Source of the DNA: Candidatus Korarchaeum sp. | GTDB lineage: Archaea > Korarchaeota > Korarchaeia > Korarchaeales > Korarchaeaceae | Direction: 5' to 3' | Length of the DNA stretch: 64,000 bases | Assembly (NCBI GenBank): GCA_020833055.1 | Contig: JAJHQZ010000005.1 | Location: 31,971-95,970, forward strand | Part shown: positions 24,731-30,608 of the stretch, piece by piece | Layout: each line of letters opens with the position of its first letter | Numbering within the stretch: the stretch's first letter is position 1 | Made by a program: the position numbers and the translations under genes | Notes under the pieces: generated by a model | The model's database searches: none | What the model saw: only the letters and a program-made list of their open reading frames with translations | What the model was told of the DNA's origin: nothing

Positions 24731-26023
24731 ATGTCGTATAGGTGGCTCGCACTCTCCCTCATCTTCCTATTAGTGGGTGTCGTAGGGGGATACTCCCTAG
24801 CCCCCAAGGGGACTACGCAAACGGTCACGCAGACAGTGACGCAGACGGTGAAGGAGACATCGACGGTCACTCAGGAGAAGAAAGTTAAGGCAGCATTCAT
24901 ATACATAGGGCCAATAGGGGATTACGGATGGTCCCATGCCCATCATCAGGCTAAGGAAATAGTGGATAAGAAGTACGACTGGCTTGAGACAACTCAAGTG
25001 GAATCCGTAACCCCTGCAGCATCAGCAGGTGTGATGGAGCAACTCATCTCCCAGGGATATAACGTTATATTCACGACGAGTTTCGATTTCATGGATCCGA
25101 CGCTTGAGGAGGCTAAGAAGCACCCAGATATCATATTCTGGCACTGCTCAGGTTATAAGAGGAACGCTAACATGGGGACTTATTTCACGGATCTCTATCA
25201 AGCTTACTATCTGAATGGGCTCATGGCCGGCGCTCTCACTAAGACGAAGAAGATAGGTTATGTAGCTGCTCACCTAATACCGGAGGTCGTCAGGCACATA
25301 AACGCTTTCGCTATAGGAGTGAATGAAGTCTGCCCTGACTGCAAGGTCTATGTCAGGGAAATAGGAGCTTGGGTGGATCCGACGAAGGCGAGGCAAGCTG
25401 CAGAGGCCTTGATATCGGAGGGAGTAGATGTGCTAGCTTTCACAGAGGATACCCCTACGGTAGTGCAAGTGGCTGAGGAGCACTTCATGAGAGGCGAGAG
25501 GGTCCTCGCGTTCGGTCACTACAGCCCGATGAAGGAATACGGGAAGGACGTATGCGTAAGCGGACAGATAGCTCACTGGGAAGTCATATATGATGATATA
25601 CTCTCGAAGATATATGCAGGCTCTTACACTAACGAGAACTTAGATAACGTCGATTACTGGTGGAAACTGAAGGAGGGATCCGTTGAGCTCGGTTGCGCTT
25701 ATAATGAGCCCGTGAACCCGAAGTTCGTCGATGAACTGAGATCAGTGAGAGTGAAGGAGGATGTTCAGTTGCCTAATGGTACTGTGCTGAAGGATCCCGA
25801 TGTTTACACATTGATCTTCGCTAGGTTAGCTCAAATGGGCGCTATCTGGACGGGGAAGGGATGGAGATACGTGAATGACGAGACCTTCGATCCGTTCACG
25901 GGGCCAATATACGATAACAAGGGTAAGCTCAGAGTACTGCCGGGTCAGAGGATAGGGCACGATGAACTCTGGTCGATGCAATGGTGGGTTAAAAATATCG
26001 TGGGCCCCGAACTCGGGGGCTAA
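24731..26023 (+). CDS. BMP-family ABC substrate-binding protein
   Basis: The 430-residue protein has an N-terminal membrane anchor (residues 4-23) followed by a Thr/Gln/Val-rich linker of the kind used by archaeal surface binding proteins. The BMP domain begins at KVKAAFIYIGPIGDYGWS and continues through NVIFTTSFDFMDPTLEEAKKHPD (in pieces) and GYVAAHLIPEVVRHINAFA. It should capture the ligand outside the cell for the ABC importer encoded upstream. It has its own TATA-like TCTTATAATA (24680-24689) and GAGGTGATCTC before ATG, so it can be made in excess of the membrane parts. It contains tandem ACGCAGACNGT-type codon repeats only in the linker. Confidence 0.9.
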   Translation: MSYRWLALSLIFLLVGVVGGYSLAPKGTTQTVTQTVTQTVKETSTVTQEKKVKAAFIYIGPIGDYGWSHAHHQAKEIVDKKYDWLETTQVESVTPAASAGVMEQLISQGYNVIFTTSFDFMDPTLEEAKKHPDIIFWHCSGYKRNANMGTYFTDLYQAYYLNGLMAGALTKTKKIGYVAAHLIPEVVRHINAFAIGVNEVCPDCKVYVREIGAWVDPTKARQAAEALISEGVDVLAFTEDTPTVVQVAEEHFMRGERVLAFGHYSPMKEYGKDVCVSGQIAHWEVIYDDILSKIYAGSYTNENLDNVDYWWKLKEGSVELGCAYNEPVNPKFVDELRSVRVKEDVQLPNGTVLKDPDVYTLIFARLAQMGAIWTGKGWRYVNDETFDPFTGPIYDNKGKLRVLPGQRIGHDELWSMQWWVKNIVGPELGG

Positions 26024-26901
26024 TCCTCTTTTATTTTCATCCTCATCCACTTGATGCGTTTTATCGCCTCAAAACCAGCCGCTTCGAAAGCCCCCCTGTA
26101 CTTGCACCACGTCTGGATCCTCACTTTAGTCGCTCCCATATCGTATGCTATCGATAGGGCCATCTCAGCTGAATCGAAAATCTGGCCCAGACTAGCCCTC
26201 TCAGGTCCCCATATCAGAGCATATAAGTAGTTATCATCAGCTGTCGGCCTGAAAAGCCCCAAGACGAATTCCCAAAGGCCGACCCTGACCTTGAAGACCT
26301 TGGGGGGTGGGAGGCCCACAGCTTCTCTACCCCAGAGGAGTTCCCAAAGGAGAGAAGATGGTCTCGTCTGTCCTGCTAACATCTGGACAGCTACTGGAAG
26401 CTCCCTTCTCCCTATCTCCTCTATCTTAGGTTGCTCAGGGGCCGGTCTGGTTCTAGCTTCCATGAGCACTTGCGACTCTATCTCCGAGAATCCGAGGGAC
26501 TCGAAGAAGGGAATAGCTTCATCATATGGTATTGTGTCGAGAGAATAGAATCCCATCTCCCTCGCTAATTTGCTGCACTCTTCAACGAGCCTCCTACCGA
26601 CTCCCACACCCCTCTCCCCTTCCTTAACCCAGACCATCTGCAAGTAAGCGTGATCCCCCACGGGGCACTTCAACCTCTCTGGAACTATCTCAGCTTCTCC
26701 TATCAAATTATCATCCCTCAGGGCTATCAATATCCTCCCATCCACTGATAGTAAGGCATCTACATACCAACTGAAGACTTCGGGATCCCCCCAGTAACCG
26801 CAGTCCCTCATCCTCATGCTGAATGGCATCTCTCTCCACTTAGGGCAGTGGATAGAGATAACGTCCTCCAGAAACTTGCGATCGAACTTGACTATCCTCA
26901 A
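26020..26901 (-). CDS. GNAT-family N-acetyltransferase, two-domain
   Basis: The 293-residue protein carries a GNAT domain in its N-terminal half: LQMVWVKEGERGVGVGRRLVEE (about residues 88-109) includes the acetyl-CoA phosphate loop, followed by FYSLDTIPYDEAIPFFESLGF. The C-terminal 140 residues look like a second, degenerate GNAT-like unit ending in AAGFEAIKRIKWMRMK. It presumably acetylates a protein or small molecule. It overlaps the sirtuin gene by 4 nt and is the last of four overlapping genes (28944-30608 leftward), which suggests a writer/eraser pair. The substrate is unknown. Confidence 0.75.
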   Translation of the reverse strand: MRIVKFDRKFLEDVISIHCPKWREMPFSMRMRDCGYWGDPEVFSWYVDALLSVDGRILIALRDDNLIGEAEIVPERLKCPVGDHAYLQMVWVKEGERGVGVGRRLVEECSKLAREMGFYSLDTIPYDEAIPFFESLGFSEIESQVLMEARTRPAPEQPKIEEIGRRELPVAVQMLAGQTRPSSLLWELLWGREAVGLPPPKVFKVRVGLWEFVLGLFRPTADDNYLYALIWGPERASLGQIFDSAEMALSIAYDMGATKVRIQTWCKYRGAFEAAGFEAIKRIKWMRMKIKED

Positions 26902-27650
26902 GAGATCCCCTCCAGTATCTCGTTGAGGGCGATCAATACTCTACTAGCCCCCTCCCTCATCCTGAACTTAGCTAAGCTACTTAAATTGGTTTCCTCAGGA
27001 TTTATCTCGACTAAAGTAGCTCTGTTCCGGAGGGCTATAATCGGCAGAGTCGCTGCTGGCATCACGAGCCCGCTGGTCCCTATTATAAGCAACAGACTGG
27101 CCGATCTCATCATATCCTCAGCTCTCATCCACTCATCCCTGGGTAGCGGCTCATAGAACCAGACTACATCGGGCCTCATTATGGAGCCGCATCTATCGCA
27201 CTCAGGCGGCACCCTCCCCGGCAGGTTCCCGAAGCCCAGATAGACCTTATTACTGCAAGAAGTACATCTAATCCTCCAAATAGAACCGTGAAGTTCCACT
27301 AAGTTCTTAGAGCCAGCTCTCTGGTGGAGACCATCTACATTCTGAGTTACCACGCCCCTCAATATACCCTTATCTTCCCAGAGGGCGAGTATCTCATGAG
27401 CTGGCGTCGGTCGAGCTCTCGCGATTATGGACATCCTCCATAAATACCAGTCCCAGACTAACTTGGGATCCCTGAAGAAAGCCTGAGGGGTCGCGAGTTC
27501 CTCCGGATTATATCTCTCCCAGAGCCCTCCCTTCCCCCTGAAAGTCGGTATCCCTGCTTCAGCTGATATACCAGCTCCTGTGAAAGCTACGACTTTGCCT
27601 GAGTTCCTCCTTATGAGCTCAGCTACAGATCTGAGCTCATGGGAGTCCAT
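26898..27650 (-). CDS. Sirtuin (NAD-dependent protein deacylase), class III-like
   Basis: The 250-residue protein has all sirtuin motifs: GAGISAEAGIPTFRG (residues 25-39), TQNVDGLH (102-109), catalytic His121 in ELHGS, and a Cys4 zinc site (CTSC and CDRC). Tyr69 and Arg72 form the Y-x-x-R pair that in SIRT5/CobB-type enzymes recognises succinyl or malonyl lysine. It removes acyl groups from lysines with NAD. It overlaps the radical SAM gene by 14 nt and the GNAT gene by 4 nt, so it is made with both. Deacetylase rather than desuccinylase activity remains possible. Confidence 0.92.
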   Translation of the reverse strand: MDSHELRSVAELIRRNSGKVVAFTGAGISAEAGIPTFRGKGGLWERYNPEELATPQAFFRDPKLVWDWYLWRMSIIARARPTPAHEILALWEDKGILRGVVTQNVDGLHQRAGSKNLVELHGSIWRIRCTSCSNKVYLGFGNLPGRVPPECDRCGSIMRPDVVWFYEPLPRDEWMRAEDMMRSASLLLIIGTSGLVMPAATLPIIALRNRATLVEINPEETNLSSLAKFRMREGASRVLIALNEILEGIS

Positions 27651-28947
27651 GGGGCTCGACCTCAGGGGGCTTCGATGGGTAGCTCCTCACTTCAGCCTCT
27701 AAGGGGCACCCTCCCCTGCAGAAAGAGAGCAGGGGGCAGCTCTTACAGGCATCCCCTATATAAGATGCCTCCCTTATGCTCAAGCACTCCTTCGAGTACC
27801 ATATATCCATCCATCTATCCCTCAAGATGTTCCCGAGCTTTAAGTAATGGCTCTGGCAAGGTATAACAGTGCCATCGGGCTCTACAGCGAGATTGATGCT
27901 GCAGGCGGAGCAGAACTTCAGCCCCAGCCCCATGCTCATTGGATCCATCTCGCAGTACCTCGTAACCCCGTACCAAGTGAAATCGAGATCTAGCTCTATA
28001 GCTAGTTCCTTAGCTTCAGTTATTATGTTAATCATCTCCTCGAAACTCGGCTCCATATCGAGAGTAGCTCTCCCGCTGTAAATGACTCTATTGAGGGAGT
28101 AACCGTGGACCCCCAGTTCCGCAGCGAATCTAATAGTATCCAGTATAGTCGGTGAGTTCATCTTCAGGAGGGTCGAGTTGACGCTCACGTAGACTCCAGT
28201 ATTCACCATGCTCTTTATCCCACTGACCGTCCTCTCCCAGCTCCCCCTCACTCTAGTGATTGAGTCATGGACCTCAGGATCCTTCGACTCCAGAGTTATT
28301 TGAGCGTAATCCAAACCAGCTTCCGCTAATCTCCTAGAGAGGTCATCACTCAGCAAAGTCCCATTCGTCACGATCCCGGATACCATACCTAGCCTCTGGG
28401 CCTCAGAGACTAGATCGACGAGATCCTCCCTCAATGTGGGCTCTCCACCTGTGAAAGTGACTTGAGGTACCCCTAGCTCATGAAATACCCTCAAAACTCT
28501 CTTCCAATCTTCAGTGCTCAGCTCCTCCGTTTCCCTGGGGCTAGATGAGTAACAGTGGACGCAATAGTTATTGCACTTGTAAGTGAGGATTAGATCTACT
28601 CTGAGGGGAGCTGACATTGCAGTGACATCGGGGAGTTGGTACTTGAATCCCAGATCTGTGACAGGGTCTCCGTAGCCATCTATGAACATCCTTATCTTCT
28701 CAGTTATCTCATCGAAATGCCTCCTCACTTCACTCTCCTTCATCCCTCTGTAGTATTTCTTGAGTTCTTTAACAGCTTGCTTCCAGTCCCCTCCCGAGAG
28801 GAATGCCTTGATCATAATCGCTGCTGTGTGATTGAGATAAGCTACTCTACTTGCATCCACAATGAGGGAGCCCATTCCATAAGGATCTATCCTAAGCTGA
28901 ATCTTATGGCCCCTGTAATTGAAGGTCAATAGCTCTCTCTCGCTCAT
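27637..28947 (-). CDS. Radical SAM/SPASM enzyme with PqqD-like N-terminal domain
   Basis: The 436-residue protein begins with about 95 residues resembling PqqD-type peptide-recognition domains (LNHTAAIMIKAFLSGG, then a helical KELKKYY region). The radical SAM core has CNNYCVHC (Cys125, Cys129, Cys132) and TFTGGEPTLRED. A C-terminal SPASM region with CSAC, a PC, KEC and ACKSCPLLSFCRGGC would bind auxiliary 4Fe-4S clusters. Such enzymes modify ribosomal peptides. ATG 28947 overlaps the preceding stop by 4 nt and has GGAGGTGG before it; the frame upstream of this ATG is only a shadow of the Cys-rich tail. The likely substrate is that tail. It is not MoaA or PqqE by context. Confidence 0.85.
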   Translation of the reverse strand: MSERELLTFNYRGHKIQLRIDPYGMGSLIVDASRVAYLNHTAAIMIKAFLSGGDWKQAVKELKKYYRGMKESEVRRHFDEITEKIRMFIDGYGDPVTDLGFKYQLPDVTAMSAPLRVDLILTYKCNNYCVHCYSSSPRETEELSTEDWKRVLRVFHELGVPQVTFTGGEPTLREDLVDLVSEAQRLGMVSGIVTNGTLLSDDLSRRLAEAGLDYAQITLESKDPEVHDSITRVRGSWERTVSGIKSMVNTGVYVSVNSTLLKMNSPTILDTIRFAAELGVHGYSLNRVIYSGRATLDMEPSFEEMINIITEAKELAIELDLDFTWYGVTRYCEMDPMSMGLGLKFCSACSINLAVEPDGTVIPCQSHYLKLGNILRDRWMDIWYSKECLSIREASYIGDACKSCPLLSFCRGGCPLEAEVRSYPSKPPEVEPHGLP

Positions 28948-30608
28948 CCCACGCCACCTCCAGCGCAAGCACAAGCGCAGCTGACGCAAGCGCATGCGCA
29001 AGCGCAACTGACGCATACGCAGGATAGTACATGCCTCCTGCTGCTCCCTCTAGGTCTCTCAGGCGTTATTGTCCTCGCTATCTTGTTGGAGAAGTCCTCC
29101 ATGTTCCTCACGATAGAGGAGGAGAAGCCCTCTATGGATCTAGCTATAGAATCAGCCGCTCTCTCTATACTCACGACAGGAGCCTCCACTCCGGATCTAG
29201 CTTCGGGCCGTCCTCCAATATCCTTAGGGCCGATAGGCTCCCTAGGATGAGGTATGTAGATAGTGCCCCCCCTGGGGATCCAGATCCAAGTGTCCTCCAA
29301 TGTCCAAGTACCCCCTAAGGGACGGGAAATTTGATCAGGAGATAAGCCCTCTTTCAAGTATCTCTTCAGATTCCTCTCGAAGTTCTCATCCGTGAGTAAC
29401 CATGGGAGATTTTCCCTCAAGATCTCTAGCCTCTTATCCATTGGAGCTCGAGAGATCTCCCTCCAAATGGAATTGACTAGCTTCTCATAATGAGCTATTG
29501 TACCGAGCCTGGAGTAACCAGCTATCTCCCTATTGACTCTCCTATGTAAGCTCTTAATCACGTTCACTAGACAATCTTCAGAGGGCGTGCCTCCGTCCAA
29601 GCAATCGAGGAAGATCTTCTCGTAGGCCCTCAATTGGGAGGGAGAGTTGTTCAACTTCTCAATATCCAATGGCTCTACGCTCTTCACCCTAATGAGCCCC
29701 TTATTCGATAACTCCAGAGCTATAGTAGCCAATATCCTCCCGTAACTTATCTCCCTCCCCTCCAACTTCTTCAGATAAGCGACCTCAGGGGGTCTCAAGT
29801 TCTTATTCACTCCGAGGCTCTCAACAGAGACTTCAGGGGGCTTATAGACGGACTTCTCGATGAGGGACTTCACTGTACTCGCTATGAAGAATATCGAGAA
29901 GACGACAGCCCCTAAGAATATGAGGCCGATCACAGCAGGGAGGAGACCCTCGCTCTCAGATCCCTTAACGTAAGATCTCACATATTCCTTAGGGAATGAG
30001 ACACCTACATCGAACTTATAGCTAGGTGGCAGGTCATGTCTCTCCCAGTAAAGTGCTAGTCTACCATCCTCAAGTAGTATGAGATTATCGTAATCCGGTC
30101 GATTCCTGACCTTATTACTATTATCTACTCCGGGTGGGAGGATTATCCAGAGCCTCAGGGATCTCACTCTAGCATCGAACCAAGATGGGATGAACTCGAG
30201 CCCAACGTTCCCCGGATTCATCGAATCCTCGTAAATGAAATCCTTGAGCACTACCTCCAAATGGTAAGTTCTAGATTCCCCTGCATTTATTGGAGTTGTT
30301 GGATGCATTTTCACAGCATAATAAGACTCCTCGATGACTTTCTCATACTCTACTTCCCTAGTCTCTCCATCCCTCATTTCTAGGGCCTTCATTACATCGA
30401 ATCTAGAGTTAGGCATCCCTATGGCGACGTATCTAGCTACAGTCCCGGAGGTCACGTGGATCGTCAAGTTGTAAGATAGAAGTACATCCCCAGACTCCTC
30501 TATCTCAAGTACCACTGACTCATCTTCCACTTCATAGCTTACCTGGGCCGATGCTATTATCGGAGCGATCATCAGGAGTAACAACACCACTAAGCATAGG
30601 TAACGCAT
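28944..30608 (-). CDS. DUF2207-like membrane protein with Cys-Ala tail
   Basis: The 554-residue protein has a signal peptide (residues 1-21), an outside domain of about 200 residues typical of DUF2207, one clear membrane helix (222-244), and a cytoplasmic domain with PPEVAYLKKLEGREISYGRI, also DUF2207-like. Near the C-terminus, after SSRRHVLS, residues 530-548 hold nine cysteines, nearly all separated by single Ala or Val residues, ending in GGGVG. The reading frame was checked codon by codon and the Cys codons vary (TGC, TGT). The stop overlaps the start of a radical SAM/SPASM gene. I infer that the tail is modified or metallated. ATG 30608 lies 26 nt from a TATA box shared with the opposite gene. 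Confidence 0.8.
   Translation of the reverse strand: MRYLCLVVLLLLMIAPIIASAQVSYEVEDESVVLEIEESGDVLLSYNLTIHVTSGTVARYVAIGMPNSRFDVMKALEMRDGETREVEYEKVIEESYYAVKMHPTTPINAGESRTYHLEVVLKDFIYEDSMNPGNVGLEFIPSWFDARVRSLRLWIILPPGVDNSNKVRNRPDYDNLILLEDGRLALYWERHDLPPSYKFDVGVSFPKEYVRSYVKGSESEGLLPAVIGLIFLGAVVFSIFFIASTVKSLIEKSVYKPPEVSVESLGVNKNLRPPEVAYLKKLEGREISYGRILATIALELSNKGLIRVKSVEPLDIEKLNNSPSQLRAYEKIFLDCLDGGTPSEDCLVNVIKSLHRRVNREIAGYSRLGTIAHYEKLVNSIWREISRAPMDKRLEILRENLPWLLTDENFERNLKRYLKEGLSPDQISRPLGGTWTLEDTWIWIPRGGTIYIPHPREPIGPKDIGGRPEARSGVEAPVVSIERAADSIARSIEGFSSSIVRNMEDFSNKIARTITPERPRGSSRRHVLSCVCVSCACACACVSCACACAGGGVG

Follow-up and report, generated by a model that had tools for sequence, protein, structure and literature searches.

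A radical SAM/SPASM enzyme as the proposed maturase of a conserved Cys-Ala tail on a korarchaeal membrane protein

We propose that two overlapping genes of Candidatus Korarchaeum sp. form a maturation system, in which a radical SAM/SPASM enzyme covalently modifies the cytoplasmic, Cys-rich tail of a membrane protein of the DUF2207 superfamily. We assign to this reading a probability of roughly 0.8. Both genes, like all features located below, are on the reverse strand (-) of the window (the whole stretch of DNA analyzed, 64,000 nucleotides). The membrane protein, the proposed substrate, is encoded at 28944..30608 (554 aa, ATG start, TGA stop) and the proposed tail maturase (436 aa) at 27637..28947, with the stop codon of the former and the start codon of the latter overlapping in the sequence ATGA (28944..28947). 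Together with this overlap, the proposal is supported by the architecture of the maturase, the association of Cys tails with adjacent maturase genes, the match between maturase clades and tail types, the invariance of the tail and its predicted cytoplasmic topology. The original prediction dealt with the membrane protein and its tail; the overlapping maturase gene, the tail-enzyme association, a second tail type, and the spread to Asgard archaea and Armatimonadota go beyond it.

Re-reading the open reading frame reproduced the tail exactly as first described: residues 530-548 (28965..29021) are CVCVSCACACACVSCACAC, with nine Cys among 19 residues (positions 530, 532, 535, 537, 539, 541, 544, 546, and 548). 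The tail is laid out as CV, two tandem nine-residue units (CVSCACACA CVSCACACA) and a terminal GGGVG (residues 550-554; 28947..28961), whose GGG is invariant in 76 homologues. Only three further Cys (5, 336, and 346) are found in the 554-aa protein. The probability of at least nine Cys in 19 residues by chance is ~6e-16 at the Cys frequency of the protein body and ~4e-11 at a Cys frequency of 2%; in the 269 stop-to-stop frames of 60 aa or longer in the window, the runner-up 19-residue stretch has five. Comparison of 21 loci of the host phylum shows no variation at 21 of the 23 C-terminal residues, and the third positions of the tail codons differ in 57% of pairwise comparisons versus 3.7% for first and second positions. 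This contrast between fixed residues and variable codons leads us to infer strong selection on the tail peptide. A chance or slippage origin is ruled out by this amino acid invariance and codon variation; the argument against slippage originally drawn from codon variety holds, with TGC/TGT and GCN varying both within the gene and between genomes. Across 76 homologues from three phyla, the pattern CACA...CACACAGGG is fully invariant (C537, A538, C539, and A540, then C544 to G552). Overall identity of the homologues outside the host phylum is mostly 20-30%. In the same alignment mean conservation is 0.88 for the tail versus 0.46 for the body, values to be read knowing that the relatives were collected with a tail-including profile, which favors tail-bearing members.

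The AlphaFold2 (AF2) model of the membrane protein (mean pLDDT 81.6) begins with a helix at residues 2-20, within a signal peptide or first transmembrane helix (residues 1-21, MRYLCLVVLLLLMIAPIIASA; 30546..30608), followed by an extracytoplasmic beta domain (residues 24-206; 29991..30539), a transmembrane helix also indicated by sequence hydrophobicity (residues 222-252; 29853..29945), a cytoplasmic domain (273-427), a disordered segment, helices within 481-514 (29067..29168) and the disordered tail. These last helices are modeled confidently, are flanked by disorder and are seen in the alignment, and may constitute a leader-like recognition region. The predicted topology places the tail in the cytoplasm, on the enzyme's side, with or without cleavage of the signal peptide, in agreement with the placement first suggested. 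The ectodomain resembles yeast OST1 (Z 16.7, 178 residues, 2.8 A), with an OST1/ribophorin I-like fold, and also the N-domain of M1-aminopeptidases. We take this likeness of models to reflect a shared fold only; no link of the ectodomain to archaeal OST1 was found through Pfam. The OST1-like fold could nevertheless bear on archaeal proteins named OST1.

The description of the protein as DUF2207-like stands at the superfamily level. The window protein has no Pfam match, PF09972 and PF20990 included, and true DUF2207 membership by Pfam falls under threshold. The family profile, however, reaches two proteins that are DUF2207 by Pfam, one in genome G850 (locus L251, E 3.3e-16) and one in G583 (L253, E 5.9e-9). 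The likeness to DUF2207 (PF09972/PF20990) extends to the succession of signal peptide, beta ectodomain, transmembrane helix, cytoplasmic domain, and low-complexity C terminus, whereas the ordinary members sampled end in Gly-rich sequence and have no radical SAM neighbor.

The proposed maturase matches Radical_SAM (PF04055, E 6e-30), with the CX3CX2C cluster motif CNNYCVHC at residues 125-132 (28552..28575), also seen in the alignment, and SPASM (PF13186, E 6e-10), in a region with seven Cys conserved in the alignment (C332, C346, C364, C401, C404, C410, and C414; 27706..27954); it has no Cys beyond C414. In its AF2 model (pLDDT 90.9), residues 1-99 (28651..28947) form four strands and then three helices, the arrangement of an RRE/PqqD-like domain. 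Pfam PqqD is above cut-off in one homologue (L248, 3.6e-7) and weak in two others (L170 and L027, 0.014-0.016), and the window maturase itself has no Pfam PqqD match. Its best PDB relatives by sequence profile are SkfB, PqqE, and SuiB, which are peptide-modifying enzymes. The top structural match is SkfB (Z 29.7, 347 residues, 3.7 A), and like that of SuiB (Z 27.8, 376 residues, 3.7 A) it spans nearly the whole length of the maturase. Among the best 25 of 89 and of 96 NCBIfam matches, no named model is above cut-off; the nearest of these best 25 include the haem-pathway NirJ2 and AhbD, all far under their cut-offs. One point against the proposal is the nature of the substrate, as radical SAM/SPASM maturases do not usually act on membrane proteins of 554 aa.

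We searched 29 genomes of the host phylum. Wherever the CACA tail occurs, an orthologous maturase is also encoded, the one exception being G025 (91% complete, 210 contigs), in which the tail is present and the enzyme was not found; in G026 and G027 the maturase is non-adjacent, elsewhere in the genome, and G022, G023, G024, and G028 have neither tail nor maturase. Every complete korarchaeal orthologue is tailed, one of them (G017) with the second tail type, and among these no homologue with the same neighbors lacks a Cys tail. Searching the tail codon pattern in 394 archaeal genomes gave additional true cases in G360, G243, and G334, each with an adjoining maturase gene. Other matches were rejected, either as simple TG repeats (L137, L140, and L144) or as having no such C-terminal tail (L141, L142, L143, L145, L146, and L168). 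Members of the family were recovered by profile search from 74 of the 227 genomes in G360's phylum, which we call Asgard on account of the ESCRT-II family PF05871 (in 6/6 members tested, absent from 14 control genomes and two korarchaeal genomes tested), and from 52 of the 291 in the phylum that includes the Zipacnadia bacterium at L027, Armatimonadota by its tree label. At nearly all CACA loci of the Asgard phylum the protein terminates in a variant, for example CACACAGCACACACAGGGR or CACACACACACAGGGR. A scan with the maturase gave mostly ~30%-identical SPASM enzymes of methanotrophs; L027 alone of these matches was examined, and it was informative. In the phylum of G893 (locus L028, Acetobacter), the CACACAGG codon pattern had three matches in 398 genomes, all internal to other frames and none C-terminal, so that these sequences give no sign of the system.

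The presence of a Cys tail is closely associated with that of the enzyme. An adjacent maturase gene was found for 87 of 93 Cys-tailed homologues versus 0 of 26 complete Gly-tailed DUF2207 relatives, for most of which ~1.5 kb of flanking sequence was searched (Fisher P = 8e-21, only indicative, as the loci are related by descent and their independence is overstated). The Gly-tailed controls are PF09972 matches from Armatimonadota, mostly collected with this independent Pfam model. Three of the six Cys-tailed exceptions are short loci near contig ends (L198, L205, and L221), two have a maturase elsewhere in the genome (L022 and L023), and for the last, that of G025 (L021), none was found. Gly-tailed and Cys-tailed members coexist in some genomes, e.g., G586, G657, and G665. 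G025, in addition to its CACA-tailed protein, encodes a distant paralogue (L026, contig C183) with Gly-Ala repeats and no Cys up to the end of the locus (GAGAGGGAG).

The second tail type consists of (CHSA)n repeats ending in CVSGG or CVSGF. It is carried by Armatimonadota (L241-L245), by Asgard archaea (L247-L250 and L252) and by G017 (L175), of the korarchaeal family, and a maturase gene is near all these loci except L252, where the contig ends. (L251, the locus of the DUF2207 protein of G850, lies within the wider range L247-L252 also given for this tail type.) In the maturase tree, which carries a long-branch warning, ten CHSA-associated and 58 CACA-associated enzymes are split with 100/100 support, and each of the two clades contains both archaea and bacteria. 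Although G017 and its sister G021 fall within the family of the window genome, their enzyme is of the CHSA type; the tail of G017 is CHSA, and the membrane protein of G021 is cut by the contig end. Because of these two genomes, we conclude from the sequences that tail type tracks the enzyme, not the species. Short of biochemistry, the strongest argument that the tail is the enzyme's target, as it very probably is, lies in the correspondence of maturase clades to tail types across archaea and bacteria. Upstream of the CHSA-type maturase of G021 there is also an open reading frame (L176:3857-4786) rich in CPTGAKC/CPTGARC-like Cys repeats, with a C-terminal hydrophobic segment, which judging from its sequence is possibly a third substrate type.

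We suggest the following mechanism. The maturase would dock on the membrane protein through its PqqD-like RRE, perhaps at the helices within 481-514, and a SAM-derived radical would abstract an H atom from a tail residue. A Cys sulfur held near one of the SPASM Fe-S clusters would then bond to the carbon of a tail residue, yielding a thioether, and this step would be repeated along the tail or, in relatives, along the (CHSA)n repeats. The modified tail would remain as a permanent, membrane-anchored structure, possibly serving in metal or redox handling. By analogy with the enzyme class, we give thioether links about even odds as the product; two observations favor them, namely that conservation centers on Cys flanked by small residues and that the enzyme matched best by structure is a thioether former. 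The thioethers of the original prediction are kept as one candidate, with the chemistry still putative, while lipidation, also put forward there, is not upheld, given that no lipidation motif is seen and that the partner is a radical SAM protein. To our knowledge, the strict Cys-Ala alternation fits no known thioether pattern. The tail is probably uncleaved, since no peptidase gene recurs beside the pair.

Instead of thioethers, the maturase may introduce other cross-links (C-C bonds among them), epimerized residues or a cofactor-like structure, to which the methyltransferase present in many operons would add. We consider this a serious possibility, if well short of an even chance. Several reaction outcomes are known for the RRE-radical SAM/SPASM class (PMC8326336, PMC9062424), the C-C bond makers SuiB and PqqE are among the best structural matches, and a class I methyltransferase adjoins the pair in Asgard and Armatimonadota loci. 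The conserved residues are, however, Cys and Ala/Gly, whereas C-C cross-links typically involve aromatic or Lys/Arg partners, which are missing here; and SkfB, the top match, is a thioether enzyme.

It appears improbable that the tail serves unmodified as a site for metal or Fe-S binding while the neighboring enzyme acts elsewhere, for example on a cofactor. Soft metals would bind to nine Cys in 19 residues, His is added in the CHSA tails, and the tail is predicted to be cytoplasmic and, without ligand, disordered; but this does not explain the strict tie to an RRE-bearing radical SAM enzyme of peptide-modifying type, nor the matching clades of enzymes and tails, and the Ala spacers and the GGG are invariant, whereas ordinary metal sites allow spacer changes. 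Metal binding as such, suggested for the tail at the outset, may occur, though it would come second to modification. We think it quite unlikely, too, that maturation is followed by release of the tail as a true RiPP, with the membrane protein as a mere carrier. It is mainly in RiPP pathways that enzymes of this class have been described, and the C-terminal position of the tail resembles that of a RiPP core; against release, neighborhood clustering shows no recurrent peptidase or exporter gene beside the pair, the tail is predicted to lie on the cytoplasmic side, and the large two-domain carrier is itself conserved. Finally, a low-complexity tail without function, kept by drift or slippage, can be dismissed despite the frequency of Gly-rich tails among DUF2207 relatives, given residues that are invariant across two domains of life in spite of varied codons.

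Returning to covalent modification by the maturase, a role of the tail in metal or redox handling is a doubtful guess, made by analogy with Cys-tailed membrane proteins found beside MNIO enzymes (PMC12452194). More broadly, and tentatively, with the odds somewhat against us, we suggest that the tail may become a new membrane-anchored structure, a dense thioether ladder or a cofactor-like element, doing metal or redox work at the inner membrane face and occurring in Korarchaeota and Asgard archaea as well as in some bacteria; (CHSA)n would be its second flavor.

Maturation by RRE-radical SAM/SPASM enzymes is an established process; what seems to be new, within the literature searched, is the substrate together with the tail patterns and their distribution. 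That literature included few subscription papers, and in it we found nothing published on the tail, on the gene pair or on DUF2207 in combination with a radical SAM enzyme. SkfB (6efn), SuiB (5v1q), CteB (5why), and PqqE (6c8v) share the RRE-radical SAM-SPASM order, the fold and the adjacent substrate gene, but in place of a short peptide the proposed substrate here is the C-terminal tail of a membrane protein of 554 aa, and a peptidase is not recurrent. Sactipeptides and ranthipeptides likewise derive from Cys-rich substrates of radical SAM/SPASM enzymes; these are small leader-core precursors, unlike the full-length protein considered here, for which thioethers are putative. Membrane proteins of the TIGR04222 type have C-terminal Cys segments beside MNIO enzymes, for which modification has been proposed (PMC12452194), and are thus similar in combining a low-complexity Cys tail with an adjoining peptide-modifying iron enzyme. 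In that system the enzyme is an MNIO, the location is periplasmic and the Cys are scattered in Ser/Gly, whereas here we find a radical SAM enzyme, a tail predicted to be cytoplasmic and the CACA/CHSA pattern. The window membrane protein matches neither TIGR04222 nor any other NCBIfam model, and the four neighbors scanned (radical SAM, Sir2, GNAT, and cupin-type GPI) include no MNIO gene, and we reject a TIGR04222/MNIO-type identity. The CHSA tails recall TIGR04117 (Cys-Xaa-Xaa-Xaa repeat radical SAM target) in having Cys at every fourth residue and a radical SAM partner. A CHSA protein scores 13.3 bits (E 0.066) against this model, with a cut-off of 50, and the window protein does not match it; the model has 98 positions and is not a DUF2207-like membrane protein, and the CACA tails are unlike it. 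If our proposal is true, radical SAM maturation extends from small peptides to the C termini of full-length membrane proteins, is shown in Korarchaeota and Asgard archaea, and brings to light a low-complexity motif nearly invariant between archaea and bacteria. The system offers an initial functional foothold in one branch of the uncharacterized DUF2207 superfamily, and its two tail/enzyme flavors permit direct specificity swaps.

By clustering, the widely recurrent genes of the neighborhood are those of the membrane protein and the radical SAM enzyme, with the class I methyltransferase in many Asgard and Armatimonadota loci. This SAM-dependent enzyme adjoins the pair in L169, L170, L027, and L167, and is absent from the korarchaeal window. 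There, the maturase gene is overlapped by that of a Sir2-family protein (26898..27650), itself overlapped by that of a GNAT acetyltransferase (26020..26901), in an order also found in G010. The Sir2 and GNAT overlap arrangement downstream of the maturase is observed in the window and in L177, and a gene that clusters with this Sir2 gene is also near the Asgard locus L256. In Armatimonadota operons, a second SPASM protein directly precedes the membrane protein (L027:7101-8588, with equivalents in L262 and L265); its radical SAM domain looks degenerate (Radical_SAM only at E 0.21), and from its sequence it is possibly a catalytically dead partner. A small membrane protein with a zinc-ribbon-like CxxC...CxxC end adjoins the system in three loci (L027:5372-5851, L167:2467-2832, and L261).
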